From Lachnospiraceae bacterium (GTDB taxonomy: Bacteria > Bacillota > Clostridia > Lachnospirales > Lachnospiraceae), in assembly GCA_022793065.1 (NCBI GenBank), contig JAAWCE010000065.1:1-64000 (forward strand): a stretch of DNA of 64,000 nucleotides, in the 5' to 3' direction. Position 1 is the stretch's first letter. Each line of letters begins with the position of its first letter. Positions 43,134-55,340 of this stretch are shown here, piece by piece. The notes under the pieces were generated by a model. That model searched no databases and was not told where the DNA came from. It was given only the letters and a program-made list of their open reading frames with translations. A program made the position numbers and the translations under genes.

Positions 43134-45251
43134 ATGAGTGATGTATTGAACCTGAATGTGGAAGAAATTTTTGCCAGCAAGGTATTCACCTTCGGTAAGA
43201 TGAAAGAGAGGCTTCCAAAGAGTGTGTACAGGGAAGTTCGGCGGGTGATGGACCATGGAGGTGAATTATCTCTGGCGGCTGCCGACGTGATTGCAAAAGC
43301 TATGAAGGATTGGGCTGTGGAAAATGGTGCAACCCATTATACACATTGGTTCCAGCCATTGACCGGTATCACCGCCGAGAAACATGATGCTTTCGTGACG
43401 CATCCTGACGAGGACGGCAAGATGATTATGGAATTTTCCGGTAAGGAGCTCATCAAAGGGGAACCGGATGCTTCCTCGTTTCCTTCCGGCGGTTTGAGAG
43501 CTACGTTTGAGGCCAGGGGGTATACCGCATGGGATATTACATCTCCGGCATTTTTGAAAGAGGATGCCACAGGGGTAATTCTCTGTATTCCAACAGCCTT
43601 TTGTTCTTATACGGGGGAAGCGTTGGATAAGAAGACTCCTTTGCTTCGTTCCATGGAGGCTATTAGTCAACAGGCGCTCAGGATTGTTCGTTTATTCGGC
43701 AATACGGAGGCGACAAAGGTGGTGGCAAGCGTGGGAGCGGAGCAGGAATATTTCCTGGTGGACAGAGAGAAATATTTGCAGCGGGAAGATTTAATTTTTG
43801 CAGGCCGTACATTATTTGGTGCGCCGGCGCCTAAAGGACAGGAGCTGGAGGATCATTATTTCGGCACAATCCGGGAACGGGTCGGCGCGTACATGAAGGA
43901 TTTGAACATAGAGCTATGGAAGTTGGGAGTAACGGCCAGAACCCAGCACAATGAGGTTGCGCCGGCCCAGCATGAACTGGCGCCGGTGTATGAGTCGGCC
44001 AATATTGCAGTTGACCACAATCAGCTAGTGATGGAAACGATGAAAAAGGTAGCGGGCAGACATGGCTTGACCTGCCTTTTGCATGAGAAACCTTTTGCCG
44101 GGGTAAACGGTTCCGGCAAACATAATAACTGGTCGTTGGGTACTGACAACGGAGTTAATATGTTGGACCCCGGAGATACGCCCAATGCAAATATTCAGTT
44201 TCTTTTGGTGCTGGCATGTATATTGAAAGCGGTGGATACCCATGGGGATTTACTTAGGCAGAGTGCCTCGGATGTGGGAAATGATCACAGGCTTGGGGCA
44301 AACGAAGCGCCGCCGGCCATTATCTCCGTTTTTTTGGGAGAACAGTTGGAGGATGTGGTAAAACAGTTGGTGGAAACCGGTGAGGCAGCGCACTGTCTGG
44401 AAGGCGGCAAATTAGAGACGGGAGTGTCTACCTTGCCGGAATTAGAAAAGGACGCTACCGACCGGAATAGGACGTCGCCGTTTGCTTTTACAGGCAATAA
44501 ATTTGAGTTTCGTATGGTGGGAAGTGCGGATTCCATTGCCAGTCCCAATACTACCTTGAATGCGATTGTGGCGGAGGCGTTCTGTGAAGCGGCGGATTTG
44601 CTGGAACAGGCGGATGATTTTGAATTGGCCGTACATGATTTGATTAAGGAATATATGACAAAGCATCAGCGGATTATTTTCAATGGGGACGGCTATTCCG
44701 ATGAATGGGTGGCGGAAGCCGCAAGGCGCGGTCTGCCCAATATTAAGTCAATGGTGGAGGCAGCGGAGACGTTGACCACTGAAAAGGCTGTGAAATTGTT
44801 TGAAAAGTTTGGGATTTTTACAAAGGTGGAGTTGGAATCCAGGGAAGAAATTATTTATGAAATTTACGCCAAAACTATTAATATTGAAGCCCTTACCATG
44901 ATCAATATGGCTGGGAAAAAATATATTCCGGCAGTTATAAAGTATACAAAGTCTCTGGCAGATGCAGTGATTTCCGTCAGGGGGGCCGGAGCGGATGCCT
45001 CGGTTCAGGAAGAATTGCTCCAGGACGTGAGTAAGAGGCTGGCGGCGGCCAAAGCGGCGCTTTCCAAACTGGAAAAGGCGTCGGTTCAGGCTGGAAAAAT
45101 CCATAACATAAAAGAGCAGGCATTCTATTATAAGGATATGGTTAAAACAGCTATGGAAGAGTTGCGGACGCCCATTGACGAGCTGGAAATGATTGTGGAT
45201 AAGGCAATGTGGCCCGTGCCTTCTTATGGTGAGCTTACTTTTGAGGTATAA
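43134..45251 (+). CDS. glnN: Glutamine synthetase type III
   Basis: 705 residues, the size of GSIII and far longer than GSI (about 450). Opening FGKMKERLPKSVYREVRRVM, then THYTHWFQPLTGITAEKHD, and the catalytic block GAEQEYFLVD, TARTQHNEVAPAQHELAP (glutamate and metal site) and HEKPFAGVNGSGKHNNWS. It makes glutamine from glutamate, ammonia and ATP. RBS AGGGAGAAG. It stands alone, followed by a long hairpin that may end transcription. Confidence 0.95.
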   Translation: MSDVLNLNVEEIFASKVFTFGKMKERLPKSVYREVRRVMDHGGELSLAAADVIAKAMKDWAVENGATHYTHWFQPLTGITAEKHDAFVTHPDEDGKMIMEFSGKELIKGEPDASSFPSGGLRATFEARGYTAWDITSPAFLKEDATGVILCIPTAFCSYTGEALDKKTPLLRSMEAISQQALRIVRLFGNTEATKVVASVGAEQEYFLVDREKYLQREDLIFAGRTLFGAPAPKGQELEDHYFGTIRERVGAYMKDLNIELWKLGVTARTQHNEVAPAQHELAPVYESANIAVDHNQLVMETMKKVAGRHGLTCLLHEKPFAGVNGSGKHNNWSLGTDNGVNMLDPGDTPNANIQFLLVLACILKAVDTHGDLLRQSASDVGNDHRLGANEAPPAIISVFLGEQLEDVVKQLVETGEAAHCLEGGKLETGVSTLPELEKDATDRNRTSPFAFTGNKFEFRMVGSADSIASPNTTLNAIVAEAFCEAADLLEQADDFELAVHDLIKEYMTKHQRIIFNGDGYSDEWVAEAARRGLPNIKSMVEAAETLTTEKAVKLFEKFGIFTKVELESREEIIYEIYAKTINIEALTMINMAGKKYIPAVIKYTKSLADAVISVRGAGADASVQEELLQDVSKRLAAAKAALSKLEKASVQAGKIHNIKEQAFYYKDMVKTAMEELRTPIDELEMIVDKAMWPVPSYGELTFEV

Positions 45252-45298
45252 AGAAATACGTTTCTGATGTAAGAATTGTTGGGGAATAGAGAGACCGG

Positions 45299-45403
45299 AA
45301 GCAGAACTGTCGCGTTGAAGGCAACATATACGGAAAATTGTATGCCCTTTGGGATAATACAAGATCTTGTATCTGAGCCTCTGAAAGCGACAGTTCTTTG
45401 CTT
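45299..45403. ncRNA. Long structured hairpin region after glnN
   Basis: Arms AGAACTGTCGC (45303-45313) and GCGACAGTTCT (45387-45397) form a perfect 11-bp stem, extended by AAGC/GCTT beyond a bulge. The 73-base interior contains a GTTG/CAAC tetraloop hairpin, a GGC..ATAC/GTATGCC helix and a perfect 16-base palindrome (45357-45372). On the plus strand TTTGCTTATATTATGTTTTGG follows. This may be an extended terminator, an unrecognised small RNA or a leader-like element; I could not match it to a known class. Confidence 0.45.
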
Positions 45404-45471
45404 ATATTATGTTTTGGATATCAGAAGTCTATGATGGTTCTTTCAATGTCGGGCGTGCCATTGTGGAAGTA

Positions 45472-47163
45472 TCAGGTCTGCTGTAGATAAGTTTCCACAT
45501 CTTTGCGAATTGCCATAAATACTTCTACGATTTGCGGATCAAAGTGACTTCCGGATTCTTCTTGTAAAATGGTAAAAGCTTTGTCCAATGGGACTTCATT
45601 TTTATAAACGCGCCTGGATATTAGCGCGTCGAATACATCGGCCACCGCCATGATTCTTGCACATAGAGGAATATCCTTTCCTTTGAGACCTTCCGGATAT
45701 CCGGAACCGTCCCATTTTTCATGATGAAAATGTGCTACATCGCTTGAAATTTGCAATAGATTTTTATCCGCATTTTCGCCTAAAATATCTTCAACGATTT
45801 CGCTGCCCAGGCGTGAATGATTTTTCATGATCTCGAATTCTTCCGGTGTAAATTTGCCGGGTTTGTTTAAGATGGTGTCGGATATCATGATTTTGCCCAC
45901 ATCATGAAGGGGAGCGGCGTTGGTGATTTTGCTGATATAATCTTTGTTTACTTCTTCCGGATGAATGTGATGTTCGTACATATATTGGACAATCATTTCC
46001 ACATATTTTTTAGTGCTCATCACATGACGTCCTGTATTGTTGTCGCGGCTTTCTATTAAAGTAGCCATTCCTTCAATGACATGTTCCTGCATTTGCAGCA
46101 TGTGCTCTGTCTGCTTTTTGATTTCCAATGTCTGTTCTTCCACCCGTTTTTCCAGAGTGCGTTGGGATTGCTGCAGTTGTTGTGCGTAGTGTAATGCTTT
46201 GATTCTATTGAAATAGCTTGCGGTACAGAAATAAACCACAAGTGCAAAAATAAGCAATGAAATAATTAGATTATGATAAAGATTGTTTCGTACACGTTGA
46301 AATAATTGTTCTTCGTCGATGACCATGACCACATACCAGTCATCCTGTACTACATTGGAAAATATGGTGGAGGACTTGCCGGAAAGTTCTGTTCGGATTG
46401 TGGTTCCGGCGGCCTGTATAATCTGGCTTGCAAGATCATGTAATTCTGTATCTTTCATGTCCTGGTCTGTGAGAAAGTTTCTGCCTTTCATCTGGCGGTC
46501 GGAATGGGCCACTATAAAACCTGTTTTGTCAATAATGAATCCATATCCGTTACCGTTCAGATTCATTTCCTCTGCAAGGAGCTGCATCTCATCCATGACA
46601 ATATCAAGAGAAACCACGCTTTCTCCGTCCGACAGCGTTTGGCTGACAGATATCATAATGCTGTCGGTTTGAGCGTCCAGATAGGGTGAAACTACCACCG
46701 GTTTACCGTTTCCTTCCATTGCGGCTGTGTACCAGGGTCTTTCCTTGGGGACATAACCTTCCTCAGGAACCCAGCCGATTCCGTCAATATAATCGTCGCG
46801 AAAAAGTCCGTAAATGCCGGTAAAATAAGGGTCCATATGTATTTGGTAAGCCTGGGATTCATACAGGAGATATTGCGTAATCTCATCGGAACTTTTCCCT
46901 TCCTGCAGCATATGGTCGATGGTCAGACCGGTTACTTGCAGCACATCCAGGCCACGGAGCAAAAAGTTGTTGAGCTTCTCTGATTCCTCCGAGACAGCCA
47001 ATTCTCCGATGGTAACGGCGTCATTGCGGGCAATGGAATAAAACGAACCAAAACTGTAGCATACAATTGCCAGTAATGCTGCCAAAGTAAAGAAAAGTGT
47101 TAATACATAGTGCATTTTATCTTTTCCAGCCGCGTATATTTTTTCGCCGGTTTCTTTATTCAT
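45472..47163 (-). CDS. HD-GYP cyclic-di-GMP phosphodiesterase with extracellular dCache sensor
   Basis: 563 residues. TM1 about 17-42, extracellular dCache-like sensor (about 45-300; the WYTAAMEGNGKPVVVSPYLD and DDWYVVMVIDEEQLF pieces are typical), TM2 about 295-320, coiled coil, then an HD-GYP domain: PLHDVGKIM (HD at 420-421) and HHEKWDGSGYPEGLKG (480-494) with the GYP motif intact. It should hydrolyse c-di-GMP in response to an external small molecule. No GGDEF partner in the window. The stop lies 7 bases beyond the gap region after the hairpin. Confidence 0.9.
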   Translation of the reverse strand: MNKETGEKIYAAGKDKMHYVLTLFFTLAALLAIVCYSFGSFYSIARNDAVTIGELAVSEESEKLNNFLLRGLDVLQVTGLTIDHMLQEGKSSDEITQYLLYESQAYQIHMDPYFTGIYGLFRDDYIDGIGWVPEEGYVPKERPWYTAAMEGNGKPVVVSPYLDAQTDSIMISVSQTLSDGESVVSLDIVMDEMQLLAEEMNLNGNGYGFIIDKTGFIVAHSDRQMKGRNFLTDQDMKDTELHDLASQIIQAAGTTIRTELSGKSSTIFSNVVQDDWYVVMVIDEEQLFQRVRNNLYHNLIISLLIFALVVYFCTASYFNRIKALHYAQQLQQSQRTLEKRVEEQTLEIKKQTEHMLQMQEHVIEGMATLIESRDNNTGRHVMSTKKYVEMIVQYMYEHHIHPEEVNKDYISKITNAAPLHDVGKIMISDTILNKPGKFTPEEFEIMKNHSRLGSEIVEDILGENADKNLLQISSDVAHFHHEKWDGSGYPEGLKGKDIPLCARIMAVADVFDALISRRVYKNEVPLDKAFTILQEESGSHFDPQIVEVFMAIRKDVETYLQQT

Positions 47164-47354
47164 AATTTTTGTTTCCCTCAGTTTTGTTTGTTGAAAAACG
47201 AACTATGGTTTACGATAAATAAAAAGAAAATAATATTTGCTTTTTTATTTTCTCACAACTGCCCATAGGATGTCAACCTTATGACAGGGATAATTGAGAC
47301 TTCTTTTATGGATTGGGAAGAGTGAAAAAAATTTAAAAAAATTAAATTTAGGTA

Positions 47355-47383
47355 TTGCAAAATGGAATAACTTAGTGTATAAT
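47355..47383 (+). promoter_or_regulatory. tRNA-Gln promoter
   Basis: TTGCAA (47355-47360), 17 bases, TATAAT (47378-47383), 19 bases before the tRNA. The rest of 47164-47402 is very AT-rich with no gene. Confidence 0.75.
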
Positions 47384-47402
47384 AACTCAAGTAATGATTC
47401 AT

Positions 47403-47474
47403 AGGGCTATCGCCAAACGGTAAGGCAACGGACTCTGACTCCGTCATTTCAAGGTTCGAATCCTTGTAGCCCTG
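47403..47474 (+). tRNA. tRNA-Gln (anticodon CUG)
   Basis: Acceptor stem AGGGCTA pairs with TAGCCCT, D-arm with GGTAAGG, anticodon arm ACGGA-CTCTGAC-TCCGT with CTG in the loop, T-arm CAAGGTTCGAATCCTTG, discriminator G. All arms close. CCA is not encoded. It reads CAG codons. Confidence 0.93.
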
Positions 47475-47479
47475 TTTTA

Positions 47480-47514
47480 AAACCTCGGTGGAGAGATTCA
47501 TCGGGGTTTATTTT
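47480..47514 (+). terminator. tRNA terminator
   Basis: AAACCTCG (47480-47487) pairs with CGGGGTTT (47502-47509) with one G-T pair; the T-rich stretch TTTATTTTG follows. Confidence 0.72.
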
Positions 47515-47645
47515 GTTGTAAAATTAAGAGTTTTCGGGATTGGGGATTGTAAATTGTGCTGTGAGATGAAAAATGTTGTGGGCTATACAAATGAAAAAAA
47601 GTGTGTTACACTGAAAAAAAGAAATTACGAAACGAGGATTGAAGT

Positions 47646-48686
47646 ATGGAAGAGACAAGAGATTCCGTATTAATGGAAGAGAATGGTATGGAGATTGATT
47701 TAAAGGGGGCCAAAAAGCATTTTTCCAAAATTGGCTGGATGTTTGTGCTGGGGACAATTGCCATATATGCTGCACAGTTGATTCCTCTCACAATTGTACA
47801 GTTTCTGCGGCCGGAATGGATAGCGGACGCCAATATGTCGATTTTGGTTTCCATGCTTCCCATGTATCTGATCGGGATGCCCATATTGATTTTATTGGTG
47901 AAGGGAATTCCTTCGGAGAAGCCGGAAAACCATCCCATAAAAGCAGGACAGTTTATCGTAGCGGCAATTATGTGTTTTGCCCTTGTGCATTTGTCTAATA
48001 TAGTGGGCACCATTACTACAACGATTATTGGGGCGTTAAAGGGCGGGGAGGTTCAGAACCAGATACTAAATGCCACAGTGGGTATGGATCTGTGGATGAT
48101 ATTTATTTTCATGGTAATCTGTGCCCCCATTATGGAAGAGCTTATATTTCGCAGACTGATTGTAGACAGGACTATGCGCTATGGGCAGGGAGTGGCCGTT
48201 TTGGTGTCAGGGCTTATGTTTGGTTTGTTTCACGGCAATTTGAACCAATTTGTGTATGCGTTTGTGCTGGGCGTGTTTTTGGCATATCTGTATGCAAAAA
48301 CAGGAAATTTAAAGATAACCATTGGGCTGCACATGCTGATTAACTTTTTTGGCGGTGTGGTAAGTACCTGGCTGATACGGCTTATTGACCTGGACGAGTA
48401 TTACAGTCTTGCCATGGATGCGGATACGGATGCCTTGATGAACTTTTTGGGGGAGAATCTGGTAGGGTGCGTTGCCTATATGGTATATTTTTTATTTATC
48501 ATAAGTGTTATGATAGTTGGCGCCGTATTGATCATTGTGAGTCTGGCAAAGAAGAAATTTGTGTTAAATCGCGGATCTTTTGTGATTCCGAAAGGAAAAA
48601 AGTTTTCTACGGTGATTCTGAATGGGGGAATGATTGTTTATTCTGTCATATGGATTATTACAATTGTTTTGCAGTTGTTTATGTAG
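47646..48686 (+). CDS. CPBP-family intramembrane metalloprotease
   Basis: 346 residues, about eight membrane segments. CPBP/ABI motifs: EELIFRRLI (Glu-Glu motif 1), GLFHGNLNQF (motif 2, His) and GLHMLINFFGG (motif 3, His/Asn), the residues that bind metal in Rce1-type proteases. The N-terminal 35 residues are hydrophilic. Members cleave prenylated or bacteriocin-related proteins or act in immunity; the substrate here is unknown. The ATG at 47646 follows GAGGATTGAAGT. Confidence 0.85.
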   Translation: MEETRDSVLMEENGMEIDLKGAKKHFSKIGWMFVLGTIAIYAAQLIPLTIVQFLRPEWIADANMSILVSMLPMYLIGMPILILLVKGIPSEKPENHPIKAGQFIVAAIMCFALVHLSNIVGTITTTIIGALKGGEVQNQILNATVGMDLWMIFIFMVICAPIMEELIFRRLIVDRTMRYGQGVAVLVSGLMFGLFHGNLNQFVYAFVLGVFLAYLYAKTGNLKITIGLHMLINFFGGVVSTWLIRLIDLDEYYSLAMDADTDALMNFLGENLVGCVAYMVYFLFIISVMIVGAVLIIVSLAKKKFVLNRGSFVIPKGKKFSTVILNGGMIVYSVIWIITIVLQLFM

Positions 48687-48723
48687 AAGGGGCCTAAAGT
48701 ACCGTTTTGAAAGGAATTATTGC

Positions 48724-49461
48724 ATGTATACATTTAAGAGTAGAATCAGATATAGTGAGACGGACAGTGAGGGGAAGCTTACAATGGCTTCCCTTATCAA
48801 CTATTTCCAGGATTGCTCCACATTTCATTCAGAGGATTTGGATTTGGGGGTGGAATATCTAAGGAGAGAACATTTGGTATGGGTACTGTCATCCTGGCAG
48901 ATTGTAGTAAATCGTTATCCCGGATTTGGAGAGAATGTGCTGATTGGCACATTGCCCTATGAAGTAAAGGGATTTTTGGGATATCGTAATTTTGCAATGA
49001 CAGATGAAAAGGGGGAATATATTGCAAAGGCAAATTCCCTGTGGAGTTTGCTCAATACGGATACGGGGCGGCCGGCATCGGTAACACAGGCGATGATGGA
49101 CGGTTATACTCTGGGAGAAAGATTAGATATGGAATATGCGCCCCGCAGGATTACGCTGCCTGGAGAAGGAATCACAGGGGAACCGATTGTGGTGCGCAAG
49201 CATCATCTGGATACCAATCATCATGTGAATAATCAGCAGTTTATCAATATGGCAATGGATTATCTGCCGGAGCATTTTGTGGTAAGGCAAGTGAGGGCGG
49301 AATATAAGAAACAGGCATTTCTGGATAATGTATTGATACCCTATGTGGCGGGGGGCGGAGACAGATATACGATTGCTTTGCAGGATAAAGAGGCGAAACC
49401 TTATGCGGTGGTGGAAATGACAATGTACCGAGAAGATATGACAGGATTGAGAGAGGAATGA
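48724..49461 (+). CDS. Acyl-ACP thioesterase
   Basis: 245 residues from the ATG at 48724 (GAAAGGAA ahead). Two hot-dog folds: the first (RIRYSETDSEGKLTMASLIN, DCSTFHSEDL) and the second with the catalytic HHLDTNHHVNNQQFIN motif. It hydrolyses acyl-ACP to free fatty acids, controlling chain length or supplying fatty acids for membrane or signalling use. No fatty-acid synthesis genes surround it. Continues a plus-strand run into cvfB. Confidence 0.9.
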   Translation: MYTFKSRIRYSETDSEGKLTMASLINYFQDCSTFHSEDLDLGVEYLRREHLVWVLSSWQIVVNRYPGFGENVLIGTLPYEVKGFLGYRNFAMTDEKGEYIAKANSLWSLLNTDTGRPASVTQAMMDGYTLGERLDMEYAPRRITLPGEGITGEPIVVRKHHLDTNHHVNNQQFINMAMDYLPEHFVVRQVRAEYKKQAFLDNVLIPYVAGGGDRYTIALQDKEAKPYAVVEMTMYREDMTGLREE

Positions 49462-49473
49462 GAGGATAGGGAA

Positions 49474-50313
49474 ATGATTCGACTGGGAGAGAAACAGAAA
49501 TTGGTGATAGTAAAGGTGGTAGAATTTGGCGTATATTTGGCGGCCTCACCTGAAACTGCCGCAGAAAGGGTCTTGCTGCCAGCCAGACAGGTGCCGGAGG
49601 GAAGCCAGGTTGGTGATGACCTGGAGGTATTTATTTATCGTGATTCCAGCGACAGACTGATAGCCACTACAAGGGAGCCGAAGCTTACACTGGGGCAAGT
49701 TGCGGAATTGACCGTGGCGCAGGTGGGAAAATTTGGCGCGTTTCTGGACTGGGGATTGGAAAAGGATTTGCTGCTGCCTTTTAAACAACAAAGAGGCAAA
49801 GTGGAACAGGGGCATAAAGTGCTGGTCACTCTTTATATTGATAAAAGCGACCGTCTCTGTGCTACCATGAATGTGTATGAAAATCTTCGCACCGACAGTC
49901 CGTATAAGGCGGACGACAGGGTGAAGGGGCGCGTCTATGAGTTAAGCAAAAATTTTGGCGCTTTTGTGGCGGTGGATCATCAATATTCGGCGCTGATTCC
50001 ACAGAAAGAATTGTATGGAAAGGTGGAATTGGGAGAGGATATCTCAGCCAGAGTGGTACAGGTTCGGGAAGACGGCAAGCTTACTCTGAGTATTCGAGAG
50101 AAGGCGTATGTGCAGATGGATCAGGATGCCCAGGAGCTGCTTTCTATTATTGACGGTTATGACGGGGTGCTTCCCTTTAATGATAAAGTATCTCCCGAAA
50201 TCATACGCAGAGAGACAGGAATGAGTAAAAATGAGTTTAAACGTGCGGTGGGAAGACTTTTGAAAGAAGGAAAGATAGAGTTAAAGGGAACTGTGATTCG
50301 ACGTTTGGGATGA
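49474..50313 (+). CDS. S1-type RNA-binding protein CvfB/YitL-like
   Basis: 279 residues. Three S1/OB-like units (VKVVEFGVYLAAS; VAQVGKFGAFLDWG; VYELSKNFGAFVAVD) followed by a winged helix (GMSKNEFKRAVGRLLKEGKI). This is the CvfB layout: it binds RNA and influences virulence gene expression in Staphylococcus. Starts 12 bases after the thioesterase, so cotranscribed. Terminated by a strong hairpin. Confidence 0.9.
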   Translation: MIRLGEKQKLVIVKVVEFGVYLAASPETAAERVLLPARQVPEGSQVGDDLEVFIYRDSSDRLIATTREPKLTLGQVAELTVAQVGKFGAFLDWGLEKDLLLPFKQQRGKVEQGHKVLVTLYIDKSDRLCATMNVYENLRTDSPYKADDRVKGRVYELSKNFGAFVAVDHQYSALIPQKELYGKVELGEDISARVVQVREDGKLTLSIREKAYVQMDQDAQELLSIIDGYDGVLPFNDKVSPEIIRRETGMSKNEFKRAVGRLLKEGKIELKGTVIRRLG

Positions 50314-50340
50314 TAAGTTCAGCGGGGGTTGTATGATAGA

Positions 50341-50368
50341 AATCCGGCTCAGAAGAGCCGGATTTTTT
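50341..50368. terminator. Strong bidirectional terminator
   Basis: AATCCGGCTC (50341-50350), AGAA loop, GAGCCGGATT (50355-50364), then TTTT. It separates cvfB (+) and the convergent kinase gene (-). Confidence 0.9.
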
Positions 50369-50390
50369 CACATCACTTTTCTTATTGCAT

Positions 50391-51524
50391 TTATAGAAAC
50401 ATGGTAACTTCATAGGCTTCCCAAGAGCAGGGAATTTCCAGTTTTCGTATCATTGACTCAAGGACGTTTTCAGGAATATGGCGTGCCCTGGTGCGGTTCC
50501 TGGCAATCAGTTCCGTGTAAGGGACTTCTAAGTAGAGGATATGCACACGAGCCCCATAACCTGAGAATAGCCCTACCAGTTTTTGTCTGGTCTCCCCAAT
50601 GAGATTGGTTGCATTCCAGATAAAAGACTGTTCCTTTCGCAGATACCCCCGCGCAAGTTCCAGGGCGGCTTGCACTACCCGGCCTGTGTCTTTGGACGGT
50701 GCAATCCCCATTTTCTCCCGAAGGTCGTCCAGCGATATAACGGGAATATCTTGTGCAAAGTTTCCGGCATTTTGCGCGATCCAGGTATCTTTGCCCGACA
50801 GAGGGAGTCCTGACATGAGGATTACATCAAATGAAGTGTTATCATATAAGGGGGTATCGCACCATAGGTTCCCTTTTTGATAAAATTGAAATCGGGTGTA
50901 GGGGTTTGCAAAGGTGTGGGGAGTTTCCCATATATTTAGTTCTCTTGCAGTTTCACCAAATAGTTCCGCTTGTTCCAATAGTTGTCCGGGAACGTTCTCG
51001 ATTCGTCCTAAAATGTCTGCTTTGGACAGTAAATATAAAAGTTTCAAAGGGATACTTTCGGCGGCTTTGTATAATTCCAGCTCAGGATGCTGTTTTGTCC
51101 AAAACCACACAGGAAGACCATGGTAGCGGATTAGTTTGGCTGCAAGTTCCCTCTGCGGGAAGGTAAGACCGAAACGGTGGGCTTCCCGATAGGTAATTCC
51201 GCGGAACATTTTCTCCCCCAGGATAGTATGTCTGGGGGAAATCCATTTTCCGTCTTCTTGTCGAGTGCAGGCGGATTTCCCTATATCGTGAAACGCGGCG
51301 GCCAGAAATAAAATAGCTTGCGTATCTAAGGGCAGTTGCTGCCAGGCGTCCAGTTTGCAAAGCTGGCAGCATACCATTTGAGTATGGCAAAATACGTCCC
51401 CTTCTCCGTGATATTCAGGATTTTGTGGCACATTTTGCAATGTCAAAAGCTCCGGGCAAATGGTGGTAAGCAGAGAAAAAGAAAAGCCGCTGTCAATGAG
51501 TTCTGTAAGGATATTTCGGTTCAT
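50391..51524 (-). CDS. HD-domain phosphohydrolase fused to P-loop polynucleotide-kinase-like domain
   Basis: 377 residues. Residues about 40-180 are an HD domain: His47 (CHTQM), FHDIGK at 78-83 and Asp170 (KADILGR). Residues about 230-377 are a P-loop kinase: SGLPLSGKDTW (Walker A, 238-248) and SLDDLRE, then WNATN and RNRTR (lid arginines). This combination resembles bacterial RNA-repair enzymes that heal broken ends: the HD part removing phosphate and the kinase adding 5' phosphate. It starts directly after the ligase stop (TGA then ATG), ribosome site GGAGG. The healing role is inferred from context and motifs. Confidence 0.78.
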   Translation of the reverse strand: MNRNILTELIDSGFSFSLLTTICPELLTLQNVPQNPEYHGEGDVFCHTQMVCCQLCKLDAWQQLPLDTQAILFLAAAFHDIGKSACTRQEDGKWISPRHTILGEKMFRGITYREAHRFGLTFPQRELAAKLIRYHGLPVWFWTKQHPELELYKAAESIPLKLLYLLSKADILGRIENVPGQLLEQAELFGETARELNIWETPHTFANPYTRFQFYQKGNLWCDTPLYDNTSFDVILMSGLPLSGKDTWIAQNAGNFAQDIPVISLDDLREKMGIAPSKDTGRVVQAALELARGYLRKEQSFIWNATNLIGETRQKLVGLFSGYGARVHILYLEVPYTELIARNRTRARHIPENVLESMIRKLEIPCSWEAYEVTMFL

Positions 51525-52331
51525 TCAGGCGCCTCCTTCCGGGATGGAGAAAAGGTCCACGCCATCTGCCAGGCGGTTTGCAATGATCGGGCGGCTTGCC
51601 CAGTGACTTTCCGAATCAAGTATGGTGTTTAGGAAGGAAGGGCGGACATATTTCAAACGGTCTACCACATAATCCCCTTCTTCTACTTTAATGTAGACAC
51701 CTTCCATTGTTCCGGACAGGTCCGTCTGTGGGATAGCCCGTTCTGAATCCACGCCGCTTTTTTTACATTGGGCAAGGAAGCTTTGCTGCGCCAAATTTGA
51801 AATGAAAAGGCTGGGACCTATAAGGCGGGCAATGTCCTGAGAATTATTGTAATAACCCTGTTCCAGTACACGGACGGATTGGACAAAGGGAAAGTCCTGC
51901 AAAAATTCCTGACGTTTTGCAGTGGAATAGAATTTTCCCGTTGTTTTGTCAAAAATGTCAAATTCCATAAAATAATGTGGAAGACAGTCGTAAAAAACCG
52001 TATGCTTTGCATACAGCCATTCTCCATACATTACAAATCTGTCTCCTAAAAGGCAGTGCAGTCTTTCTTCAAAGCAGCCAGCCCAAAGTTTCAATAAATC
52101 AAACTGGCGTTCGCTGTATCCGCCGTTTAAGAAGTGCCCTCGACTTTGGAGATACATGTTCCCATCGCTGCTGAAACTGATGCCGCAGTTAGCGCCGTCT
52201 ACTTTTTCTTCCAATACCAAATACTTTCCCTCTATTTCACAGAAGGGAATACATTTTAAATCCTCATCACCAGTCTGTTTTCTGGAGCCTTCCAAGTGAC
52301 GGGTGCGGGGATACTTATAAATCTGTTCCAT
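51525..52331 (-). CDS. RNA ligase family protein (Rnl2-like)
   Basis: 268 residues. The nucleotidyltransferase motifs are intact: motif I KVDGANCG (Lys43 takes AMP), motif III region FVMYGEWLYAKHTVFYD, motif IV EGVYIK (210-215) and motif V VVDRLKYVR (Lys227). It would join 5'-phosphate and 3'-hydroxyl RNA ends. It lies upstream of the HD-kinase gene with no gap, so together they could restore cut RNA (for example tRNA) to intact form. Such cassettes are thought to repair damage by ribotoxins. No toxin or Hen1-type methyltransferase is adjacent. Confidence 0.82.
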   Translation of the reverse strand: MEQIYKYPRTRHLEGSRKQTGDEDLKCIPFCEIEGKYLVLEEKVDGANCGISFSSDGNMYLQSRGHFLNGGYSERQFDLLKLWAGCFEERLHCLLGDRFVMYGEWLYAKHTVFYDCLPHYFMEFDIFDKTTGKFYSTAKRQEFLQDFPFVQSVRVLEQGYYNNSQDIARLIGPSLFISNLAQQSFLAQCKKSGVDSERAIPQTDLSGTMEGVYIKVEEGDYVVDRLKYVRPSFLNTILDSESHWASRPIIANRLADGVDLFSIPEGGA

Positions 52332-52790
52332 ATATACTTCACGTTCCTTTCCGGGGCGTGCGTTTTTTGCAGCATAATTTCTTTTTACTGATTTCCGGAT
52401 AATTATGCCGATAAAAAACGCCGTGAAGGAATATCTTTCACAGCATCATCAAAATTTATATGGGGTAACGATTGCGGCCTATGACAGGTCTGACAACTGA
52501 AACATCCCATGCTGTTCAAAATAATCCCAACTTAACAGGTACACAAAAAACACCGATTGCCAGACAAAGATTTCTCCGGCATCCGCATGTTTTGTCTATT
52601 TGTTTGTTGGAATCGTATTACATGGGGTCCTCCAATCTGAAGCCAAAAGATGGCTGACTGATATTTTTACTCTTTTAAATATATCATCAAACCGAACTTT
52701 TGTAAATATGTAATACACACAAAGACAAAATACACTGTGAACGGTGGTAATCAGAGCCTTTTCTGAATTTAAGGAATTTTTAATCATCTA
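52332..52790. other. Gene-free region upstream of the RNA-repair cassette
   Basis: About 460 bases with no supported gene. It holds the long inverted repeat at 52360-52421 (see next entry). Two weak ORFs of about 61-63 codons (52472-52657 plus, 52596-52787 minus) lack RBS and look random. AT-rich near 52650-52720. No transposase traces. Confidence 0.5.
52360..52421. repeat. Long inverted repeat next to the RNA ligase start
   Basis: GCGTTTTTT (52360-52368) pairs with AAAAAACGC (52413-52421), and GCATAATT (52372-52379) with AATTATGC (52401-52408): 17 bp in two blocks. It ends 28 bases before the ligase start codon, so in RNA it would form a hairpin beside the ribosome site; in DNA it could be an operator. 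Confidence 0.6.
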
Positions 52791-52819
52791 TGGACAATTT
52801 TCATAAAAGTAGGTATAAT
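52791..52819 (+). promoter_or_regulatory. Promoter of the ATP synthase operon
   Basis: TGGACA (52791-52796), 17 bases, TATAAT (52814-52819). The start codon of the first gene is 42 bases downstream, and the ATG at 52790, which overlaps the promoter, is thus rejected. Confidence 0.8.
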
Positions 52820-52861
52820 GGAACAGGATGGCAGAAGGATGCGGACAGAGTAGAGGTGTGT

Positions 52862-53185
52862 ATGAAGCAGCAAAAGGATAATGACAGAGTTGTGTTTCAA
52901 TCGCTTGCCATGGTAATGCAGTTTGGCCTGAATATGTTGGTGCCAATCTGTATCATGTCTGCTCTGGGCATATGGATTGACGGAAAATTGGGGACTTCCT
53001 GGGTTACAATCGTGCTGTTTGTGGTGGGAGCCATAGCGGGAGGGCAGAACATTTACCATATGGCAAGACGAATAAGCGGCGGAACGGACGGGGAGGGACC
53101 CATAGGTGAAGGGGAACCGGGGGTAAATAAGGTTCAAAAAGGTGGTTCTTGTGAAAATAACCGGGCGGCTGAAAAAGATGAATAG
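52862..53185 (+). CDS. AtpZ/AtpI-type small membrane protein
   Basis: 107 residues from the ATG at 52862 (GAGG five bases ahead). Two membrane segments (MQFGLNMLVPICIMSALGIWI and VTIVLFVVGAIAGGQNIYHM) with the short GTSW turn match the AtpZ/AtpI family that precedes ATP synthase genes and may aid Mg2+/Ca2+ uptake or c-ring assembly. The Gly/Glu-rich tail is extra. Overlaps the next gene by 35 bases in another frame. Confidence 0.75.
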   Translation: MKQQKDNDRVVFQSLAMVMQFGLNMLVPICIMSALGIWIDGKLGTSWVTIVLFVVGAIAGGQNIYHMARRISGGTDGEGPIGEGEPGVNKVQKGGSCENNRAAEKDE

Positions 53186-53603
53186 GACGCTTCTGGAAAT
53201 GCAGGCGGGAATGTTGTTTTTCGGTCTGGTATGCCAGATAGCGGGTGTTTTTTTTGTGGATAATCAGGGGTATTATGCGGCCAGCCTCTGGTTTGGGATT
53301 GCGTTTGCCTTTGTGGCCAGTATTCATATGTACAGGACGTTGGATAGGGCGTTGTTATTCGGCGCGGATGCGTCCAAACTGGTGACGAGAGGATATATGT
53401 TCCGCTATGTGGTATTTGCGGCGGCGCTGGTTCTGGTGGCGCTGACGGAAGTGATGAATCCCATAATCTTCTTTCTGGGTTATATGAGTTTGAAAGTAAC
53501 GGCATATCTTCAGCCGATTACTCATAAATTATGCAATAAGCTGTTCCATGAGACGGACCCGGTTCCGGAGCCATTACCGGAAGAGGATGGTTTGCAGTCA
53601 TAG
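53151..53603 (+). CDS. ATP synthase subunit I-like protein
   Basis: 150 residues from GTG at 53151 (AAAAGGTGG ahead; ATG at 53178 is also possible). Four membrane segments (GMLFFGLVCQIAGVFFV; ASLWFGIAFAFVASIHMY; MFRYVVFAAALVLVALTEV; PIIFFLGYMSLKVTAYLQ) match the AtpI/UncI group. It likely helps assemble the c-ring. The presence of both a short and a long I-type gene before atpB is typical for some clostridia. Confidence 0.72.
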   Translation: MKITGRLKKMNRTLLEMQAGMLFFGLVCQIAGVFFVDNQGYYAASLWFGIAFAFVASIHMYRTLDRALLFGADASKLVTRGYMFRYVVFAAALVLVALTEVMNPIIFFLGYMSLKVTAYLQPITHKLCNKLFHETDPVPEPLPEEDGLQS

Positions 53604-53679
53604 TTCATATCCTTTGGATGTATGAGGCTTTGAAGGAATTTGGACAGCTACCAAAATATTATAAGGAGGAGGTGATAGG

Positions 53680-54420
53680 ATGGAACATGGCATTTTGCTA
53701 TCTGGTGGGTCTGATGTGGATTTTATGATTCATGGGGTATTTCAATATTCCTTTTTTGGTCATCAGGTGTGGATTACAACTTCTCATATCTGTGTGTTCA
53801 TTGTAATGCTGATTCTGGTGATTTTTGCCATAGCGGCCAACAGGTGTATGGCGAAGGCTTCTGAGGTACCGGGCGGTTTTCAGAATGTATTGGAATTGAT
53901 TGTGGAAATGCTGGATAATATGGTAAGTAGTTCCATGGGGCAGGCTGCGGCCAGATATTCCAATTACATCGGAACCATATTTATTTTTATTTTGTTCAGC
54001 AATATATCAGGTTTGCTGGGACTGCGGCCGCCTACTGCGGACTATGGCGTGACGCTGCCTTTGGCGCTTTTGACGTTTTCATTGATTCATTACAATAAAT
54101 GGAAATATCAAAAGCCGGTGACAATCTGGAAAGACCTGTGTTCACCGCTGCCGCCCTGGCTGCCAATCTGGCTTCCGATAAATGTGGTGAGTATGTTTGC
54201 GGTACCTGTATCGTTGTCTTTGCGTTTGTTCGCAAACGTTTTGTCCGGTACGGCAATGATGGCTTTGATTTATGGGCTGTTAGGATGGATTGCCACGGCA
54301 TGGCCGGCGGTGCTGCACGTATATTTTGATTTGTTCTCCGGAGCAATTCAGACTTATGTGTTCTGTATGCTGACAATGACGTACATTTCAAATGAAATCG
54401 GTGACGGCACCAGAAGATAG
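53680..54420 (+). CDS. atpB: ATP synthase subunit a
   Basis: 246 residues, five to six membrane segments. The key helix shows SLRLFANVLSGTAMM with the essential Arg (about residue 181) facing the c-ring, and FDLFSGAIQTYVFCMLTMTYI at the end. It forms the ion half-channels. RBS AGGAGGAGG. Follows the I-type gene by 76 bases. Confidence 0.95.
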   Translation: MEHGILLSGGSDVDFMIHGVFQYSFFGHQVWITTSHICVFIVMLILVIFAIAANRCMAKASEVPGGFQNVLELIVEMLDNMVSSSMGQAAARYSNYIGTIFIFILFSNISGLLGLRPPTADYGVTLPLALLTFSLIHYNKWKYQKPVTIWKDLCSPLPPWLPIWLPINVVSMFAVPVSLSLRLFANVLSGTAMMALIYGLLGWIATAWPAVLHVYFDLFSGAIQTYVFCMLTMTYISNEIGDGTRR

Positions 54421-54484
54421 TGTGCGGAATGGATGTTTCGTTTGAGTTGTCGCAAAACGGCAGGTGAAAAAGGTTCCAAATTAA

Positions 54485-54769
<285 letters not shown>

Positions 54770-54810
54770 GATAAGTGGAGAGCTTATAGGAGGCAGAAAG
54801 GAGGCAAAGA

Positions 54811-55340
54811 ATGATACTTTTAACAGGGGGCGAGTCCATGTCGAGACTTTTTGACCTGGACTGGCAGCTGATGGCCGATGCTATTCTGATGATTATCGCT
54901 ATCTTTTTCCTGTTCCTGATTATGAGCTATTTTCTGTTTAATCCTGTGAGGAAGATGCTCAACGGCCGCAAAGAGAAAATTCAAGGCGAGCTGGAGACGG
55001 CAAAGCAGGATATGGAGAATGCGCAAAAGCTGAAGGGGGAATATGAGGCAAAACTGAAAGAGATAGATAAGGAAGCGGAAAGTATTCTCAGCGAAGCCCG
55101 CAAAAAGGCTTTACACAATGAAAACCAGATTATTGCCCAGGCGAAGGAAGAGGCGGCGCGTATTCTGGAGAGGGCACGTGTGGAGGCAGAGCTTGAGCGG
55201 CAGAAGCTGTCAGATGATGTAAAGAGAGAAATAATTTCCGTTGCATCCCTTATGGCCGGCAAGGTAGTAGCAGTTTCTATTGATACTACAGTGCAAAATC
55301 AACTGATTGACGAGACCTTAAAGGAAATGGGTGATAAGAC

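Follow-up and report, generated by a model that had tools for sequence, protein, structure and literature searches.

Gene pairs that encode an RNA ligase and a fusion of an HD phosphohydrolase to a polynucleotide-kinase-like domain (HD-Pnk) are widespread, and what induces them, hence which damage they answer, is the question raised by the locus studied here. We analyzed such a pair in a 64,000-nt stretch of Lachnospiraceae DNA (contig JAAWCE010000065.1; here called the window). The part of the find that is worth following up is the leader upstream of the pair, in which a start codon is directly followed by a stop codon. On balance, we lean toward reading the locus as a healing-and-sealing cassette whose leader, in many Clostridia, acts as an attenuator governed by a ribosome parked on this start-stop element.

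The ligase and HD-Pnk genes form a cassette of a known enzyme family

The original prediction held that the ligase stop codon touches the next start codon and that the two proteins together contain ligase, kinase and HD motifs. Both points were borne out. The two open reading frames lie on the minus strand as predicted (Table 1), the junction reads GGAGGCGCCTGAATGAAC, with the ligase TGA abutting the ATG of the HD/kinase gene and GGAGG preceding both, and the Pfam families RNA_ligase, AAA_33 and HD all scored above cut-off.

Table 1. Features of the cassette and its leader in the window
Feature	Position	Strand	Basis or remark
Promoter-like site TTTACA-17-TATATT, with TG before the second hexamer	52678..52706	-	Sequence match
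Shine-Dalgarno site GGAGG of the mini-ORF	52629..52633	-	Conserved in relatives
Start-stop mini-ORF, ATG TAA	52618..52623	-	Conserved motif
Structured leader RNA (outer stem P0a/P0b, inner hairpin P1)	52506..52639	-	Covariance model R1, 102.5 bits, the window being one of the 15 seed sequences of the model
Terminator-like hairpin ATGCTGTGAAAGATATTCCTTCACGGCGT, then TTTTTATC	52418..52446	-	Fold and relatives
RNA ligase (PF09414), first gene of the cassette	51525..52331	-	268 aa; ORF, Pfam and alignments
HD-Pnk: N-terminal HD phosphohydrolase and C-terminal P-loop polynucleotide-kinase-like domain	50391..51524	-	377 aa

The ligase matched the ATP-type RNA-ligase family PF09414 (E 2e-33) and carries the KxDG nucleotidyl-lysine motif, Lys43 sitting in EEKxDG. 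It had no T4_Rnl2_C match in Pfam, and no solved structure proved closely related to it (the single-sequence search gave an unrelated protein at E 0.22, the profile search at best E 0.063). In the HD-Pnk protein, the kinase domain matched AAA_33 (E 9.1e-22) and the HD domain matched Pfam HD (E 4.8e-5, 24.1 bits versus a cut-off of 22); its HD part is similar to those of CCA-adding and poly(A) polymerases. We looked for relatives mutated at Lys43 or at the HD residues, a finding that the original prediction had named as speaking against it, and these residues were invariant in all aligned relatives: Lys43 in 14 and in 45 aligned ligases, and the HD metal-site residues H47, H79, D80 and D170 in 15 and in 56 aligned HD/kinase proteins. 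R313 and the kinase residues G244, K245, D266, R269 and R346, which include the catalytic Asp and Arg, were likewise invariant in both sets of HD/kinase proteins.

The best solved relative of the kinase part was L-seryl-tRNA(Sec) kinase (3adb, E 8.3e-16), which lends a very slight probability to the view that the substrates are different ones, for example an aminoacyl-tRNA or a nucleotide in the case of the kinase, and nucleotides in that of the HD domain. This view is countered by the next solved relative, T4 polynucleotide kinase (1ly1, E 2.4e-10), by the ligase encoded as a partner and by the Deinococcus radiodurans homolog, which phosphorylates 5'-OH DNA according to the accessible text of PMC1997131. 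We infer from homologs that the two enzymes would heal and seal RNA.

HD-Pnk proteins often share an operon with a ligase, and a further HD-Pnk is known from Runella slithyformis. Residues 19-374 of the window protein align with the D. radiodurans megaplasmid protein DRB0098 over its full length (31%, E 3e-21), and this homolog lies in a ligase-TIGR02452-HD-Pnk operon. Since an HD-Pnk in an operon with a ligase was already described for D. radiodurans in the accessible parts of PMC1997131, PMC1274311 and PMC11833690, the novelty of the enzyme pair that the original prediction implied has to be given up; a study of the D. radiodurans HD-Pnk by Schmier and Shuman (2018) is also cited in the available portion of PMC9146567. 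As judged from sequence, the pair is a further member of the known HD-Pnk family and not new as enzymes. The kinase activity of DRB0098 was demonstrated and its 3'-phosphatase left open, the HD-motif mutants not being reduced (PMC1997131, accessible text). The D. radiodurans operon differs from the window in its distant, shorter ligase (DRB0100, 210 aa, E 1.2e-9 to the ligase profile) and in a PARG-type gene between ligase and HD-Pnk; unlike in the window, no start-stop leader was among the D. radiodurans-type loci found.

Other known repair systems share the logic and differ in parts. The bacterial Pnkp-Rnl-Hen1 complex heals and seals broken RNA as well (PMC4411300, available text), but with a metallophosphoesterase where the window pair has an HD domain; beside the window pair, no Hen1 methyltransferase gene was found, its neighbors being cvfB on one side and ATP-synthase genes on the other. 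T4 Pnkp with Rnl1/Rnl2 likewise combines a P-loop 5'-OH kinase with a nucleotidyltransferase ligase, whereas the window pair has an N-terminal HD phosphatase and a 268-aa ligase lacking T4_Rnl2_C. PADLOC recognized no known defense system in the cassette; the similarities to Cas3-HD and ZorC that it reported were weak (E 1.3e-5 at best).

Many clostridial cassettes are preceded by a conserved start-stop leader

The leader region of the window extends from about 52410 to 52706, upstream of the ligase gene, and did not figure in the original prediction. Its promoter-like site is weak alone, because the region contained 8 such sites versus 4.7 (sd 2.3) in shuffles; in several relatives, TTGACA..TATAGT-like sites, read by eye, lie ahead of the start-stop motif. 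A 63-aa ORF in another frame (52596-52787, minus strand) overlaps the promoter-like site and the mini-ORF, and is probably due to chance since, by eye, its frame is not kept in relatives. Just after the terminator-like hairpin lies a second strong hairpin (about 52362-52419, minus strand; z-score -2.94 over 119 nt) that pairs with the T run of the terminator in the predicted fold, and of which no further copy was found in the same genome.

We surveyed 90 loci whose ligase match starts in its first ten residues, or 88 once the duplicates L044 and L152 were set aside. After 11 chance-like motif matches had been dropped by eye, 32 distinct leaders remained, none of them from a duplicate, and L150, with its motif further upstream, was added. 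The leader was thus present in 33 of the 88 loci. By phylum label, it was found in 22/33 Bacillota loci (one of the 11 misses, L044, being a duplicate that carries the leader), in 11/27 loci without a label (L152 likewise being a duplicate with the leader) and in 0/30 loci of other named phyla (Cyanobacteriota, 0/22; Chloroflexota, 0/4; Bacteroidota, 0/3; Spirochaetota, 0/1). Some Clostridia cassettes among the 88 loci had no leader. One of the surveyed cassettes (L036) has the same type of terminator hairpin, GCTGTGAG..CTCACAGC and a T run, 30 nt before the ligase start, but within 600 nt it lacks a start-stop motif accompanied by a ribosome site.

The common element in Clostridia combines a Shine-Dalgarno site and AUG-UAA with a long stem that has the AUG in its base. 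The inner hairpin, P1, contains a one-base mismatch, and many copies also have a terminator hairpin of the type GCTGTGAA..TTCACAGC-U. Conservation among the 32 distinct strings was highest in ATGTAA, which varies at its second base alone, three strings having A in place of T (L034; L035; L038 with L040). These four of the 33 leaders thus read AAG-UAA, which speaks against a start codon there. The segment around AUG-UAA paired better with its own downstream segment than with non-cognate ones (-20.1 versus -13.3 kcal/mol; 0/10000 permutations, n = 32, relatedness left in), and the cognate stem was not seen in the tested span of two leaders (L042 and L146). In the 15-sequence seed alignment, 90.5% of the cells were paired, with 17 double-change cells versus 6.0 in shuffles (relatedness left in). 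An 18-sequence alignment, fitted to the covariance model and including three sequences from outside the seed, gave 90.2% paired cells and 24 double-change cells versus 7.0 in shuffles, again with relatedness left in; structures slid along this alignment were only 24-36% paired. The helix holding the AUG showed no double change in the seed alignment and two in the larger one.

The model located the leader before the ligase when run on 67 loci. Its other matches there were mirror matches, those on the opposite strand of leader loci mirroring the stem, and one marginal match (L027 924-1015, E 0.93). Within 397 family genomes it gave five matches, four of them directly before a cassette; the fifth (G520, L169, 41.8 bits) was judged false, the motif being absent in the stretch inspected. 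Divergent leaders recovered by motif, such as L152 and L154-L156, are missed by the model. The motif GGAGGNNCCCATGTAAT occurred in 5/387 family genomes, three of the occurrences being cassette leaders, and in 16 viral stretches. The remaining two genomes (G451 and G382) and the 16 viral stretches were rejected as leaders, all 18 scoring at most 21 bits with the model and looking chance-like. Rfam 15 gave no match at the leader at gathering score, in window positions 45000-55000 and eight leader loci. By computation, the leader is a conserved, structured and cassette-specific element. A literature search, whose coverage mostly excludes subscription papers, found no published account of it among the titles and abstracts listed, and as far as checked the start-stop leader is the new part of this locus, a putative variant of ribosome-mediated control with an unusual two-codon mini-ORF.

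Equilibrium folds favor attenuation

Of the 33 leaders, 27 have a terminator-like hairpin. Using equilibrium folds of 25 leaders, which are related sequences, we made positions -15 to +15 around the AUG unavailable. The mean terminator probability fell from 0.82 to 0.45, compared to 0.79 with control windows. Sixteen leaders dropped by more than 0.1, 12 of them by more than 0.4; among the controls only one did (L021, in which control windows drop as much as the AUG-region block). L024 and L047 were among the strong responders. Eight leaders hardly changed, and one (L020) rose, the wrong direction. The window leader itself responded weakly, from 0.76 to 0.63.

Inspection of 15 leaders showed that the strand capturing the terminator arm is largely the free-state partner of the AUG-UAA region in nine of them and only partly so in two (L021 and L051); the expected antiterminator partner was not recovered in the window, L041, L020 and L029. 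The response of the terminator to the block was stronger in cognate than in swapped combinations (0.371 versus 0.125, p 0.0037), and antiterminator pairing was better in cognate pairs (15/10000 permutations, relatedness left in). Translational control by hiding the ribosome site of the ligase was not supported, since terminator-less leaders failed to free that site (from 0.36 to 0.24, n = 5).

Alternatively, the leader could be a real structured RNA that works independently of translation, the SD-AUG-UAA string belonging to a protein- or ligand-binding motif or to a processing stem and the terminator merely regulating or ending read-through. The AAG-UAA leaders, the pairing of the AUG itself in a stem and the weak response of the window speak for this explanation, whereas it is at odds with the GGAGG-like site and ATGTAA being the best conserved sequence while the pairing partner changes between clades, and with an effect of the AUG region on the terminator that is, on average, position specific. 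We regard it as possible, yet doubtful. The equilibrium folds favor attenuation rather than prove it, and we infer both the attenuation and its polarity from these models.

A model for control by a ribosome parked on AUG-UAA

We thus hypothesize that the cassette is held off by its leader RNA in many Clostridia. A ribosome would bind the strong Shine-Dalgarno site and initiate at AUG-UAA. Termination and departure of this ribosome would allow stem P0, with the AUG in it, to re-form, and the downstream terminator would stop transcription. If instead the ribosome remains parked, or cleavage of the mRNA hits the stop codon in the A site, P0 would release its 3' strand to pair with the 5' arm of the terminator, so that the repair genes would be transcribed. 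The HD domain would then remove 2',3'-cyclic or 3' phosphates, the kinase would phosphorylate 5'-OH ends, and the ligase would join the healed ends.

In known ribosome-mediated attenuators, such as amino-acid and drug-resistance leaders, the position of the ribosome likewise chooses between terminator and antiterminator. The mini-ORF of the window type differs from these in consisting of a start codon and a stop codon only, which means no peptide and no elongator tRNA. In plants, the AUG-stop element of NIP5;1, an AUG with an immediate stop, senses slow termination; it is alike in this respect and differs in being eukaryotic and boron responsive. A ribosome on AUG-UAA would hold initiator tRNA and have a stop codon in its A site, and would thus report on termination or recycling. 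The presumed trigger would be ribosomes that are able to initiate but not to terminate or to be recycled, and the repair genes would come on after damage to the decoding center or cleavage of the codon in the A site. Sensing of this kind fits a statement in the accessible text of PMC9223846 that PrfH, whose gene lies next to that of the RtcB2 ligase, is able to free fMet from fMet-tRNA on ribosomes cut by colicin E3, on which RtcB2-PrfH acts. RtcB2-PrfH and the RtcBA operon with RtcR resemble the cassette as regulated bacterial RNA repair but differ in ligase chemistry and share no genes with it; the RtcB gene of the window's genome lies elsewhere.

More tentatively, the leader might represent a new class of cis-acting RNA sensor for damaged ribosomes that turns on heal-and-seal enzymes, the causes being a cut decoding center or sarcin-ricin loop, cutting of the A-site UAA, or release-factor failure; we consider this extension possible, though rather unlikely. 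Under the parked-ribosome model in general, the leader would be a bacterial control element whose stop codon follows the start without any codon in between, and what it reads would be termination or recycling, not an amino acid or a nascent peptide. The conserved leader offers a direct handle on the inducer of the cassette: whatever parks the ribosome on AUG-UAA should be this inducer, and would point to the broken RNA.

Distribution and neighbors of the cassette

A scan of species genomes for HD-Pnk gave at least 590 candidate stretches, at least 573 of them confirmed, and the best 80 were kept as loci. A ligase-family ORF was present in 76 of these best 80, in 75 upstream on the same strand, which argues that the pairing is not due to chance; the four without one are L058, L081 and two loci that start at a contig end or close to it, L056 and L096. 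Among 86 ligase/HD-Pnk pairs, the ligase was close in 74 and distant or, in L082, split in 12, these 12 including Bacteroidota and D. radiodurans. Ligase and HD-Pnk distances correlated at 0.92 in the 74 close pairs and at 0.39 in all 86; tree congruence was not taken as proof because shared species history was not removed from the distances.

The distribution of the cassette is patchy. A near full-length HD-Pnk was found in 3/37 genomes of the same genus, the window's own included, and the ligase in 13/397 family genomes (any match, 16/397) and in 4/293 class genomes (any match, 7/293), counting strong matches. The cassette was absent beside cvfB in all eight cvfB regions fetched from the genus, and one locus (L041) has it beside cvfB as in the window. 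Composition gave no sign of recent import (GC of 0.463 for the cassette versus 0.447 for the window). The window's genome has one match each to PF09414, RtcB and a PemK/MazF-type family, and none to AAA_13 (PrrC-like). A phage-specific cassette was rejected as well: ligase relatives were found in only two viral contigs and 10 phage records, 18 phage records had an HD-Pnk or kinase relative, and all of these relatives were below 60% identity.

Flanking genes bear on whether the cassette mainly mends DNA breaks, not RNA, as proposed for D. radiodurans. Indeed, DRB0098-DRB0100 is described as a putative, irradiation-induced DNA repair operon in the accessible text of PMC1997131 and PMC11833690, and some plasmid copies of the cassette lie near RecX, UmuD or SOS-type genes. 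We nevertheless consider DNA repair improbable: PF09414 is an RNA-ligase family, the cassettes of other lineages have enzymes of RNA ends as neighbors (Thg1, MJ1316-2H-PAP, a second Rnl2-type ligase), and no sealing of DNA by DRB0100 was found according to the accessible text of PMC1997131. Moreover, the upstream gap in the window contained no SOS-like box, the best candidate being a match with three mismatches. A defense-island reading fared no better as support for phage defense, since PADLOC, run on 94 of 98 immediate same-strand neighbors, found no family in more than three of them among the first 25 of 57 families. The role against ribotoxins or phage put forward in the original prediction is hypothetical.

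Other flanking genes mostly vary between loci. Seven cyanobacterial loci (L057, L059, L067, L068, L076, L085 and L087) encode a protein of about 1,000 aa directly 3' of HD-Pnk, with MJ1316, endonuclease/phosphatase, 2H and poly(A)-polymerase domains (one protein scanned, seven matches counted); its predicted domains mark it as an RNA-end processing partner. A class-I SAM methyltransferase, possibly a Hen1-like partner, is encoded upstream of the ligase in six loci from three phyla (L060, L061, L072, L075, L090 and L098; Pfam check on three of the six) and adjoins it in four (L060, L072, L075 and L098). In L053 (2442-7053), genes for a kinase-like protein, Thg1, the ligase, a second Rnl2-type ligase (PF18043) and HD-Pnk form one run; an association of Thg1, kinase and ligase is already in print (PMC2904730, accessible part). 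A NADAR-Macro fusion adjoins the ligase in L061 (4101-5084) and recalls the PARG gene of the D. radiodurans operon. Finally, HD-Pnk is broken in L146 (9095-9895), where it matches as two separate pieces that are not in one frame; the ligase match ahead of it is intact.
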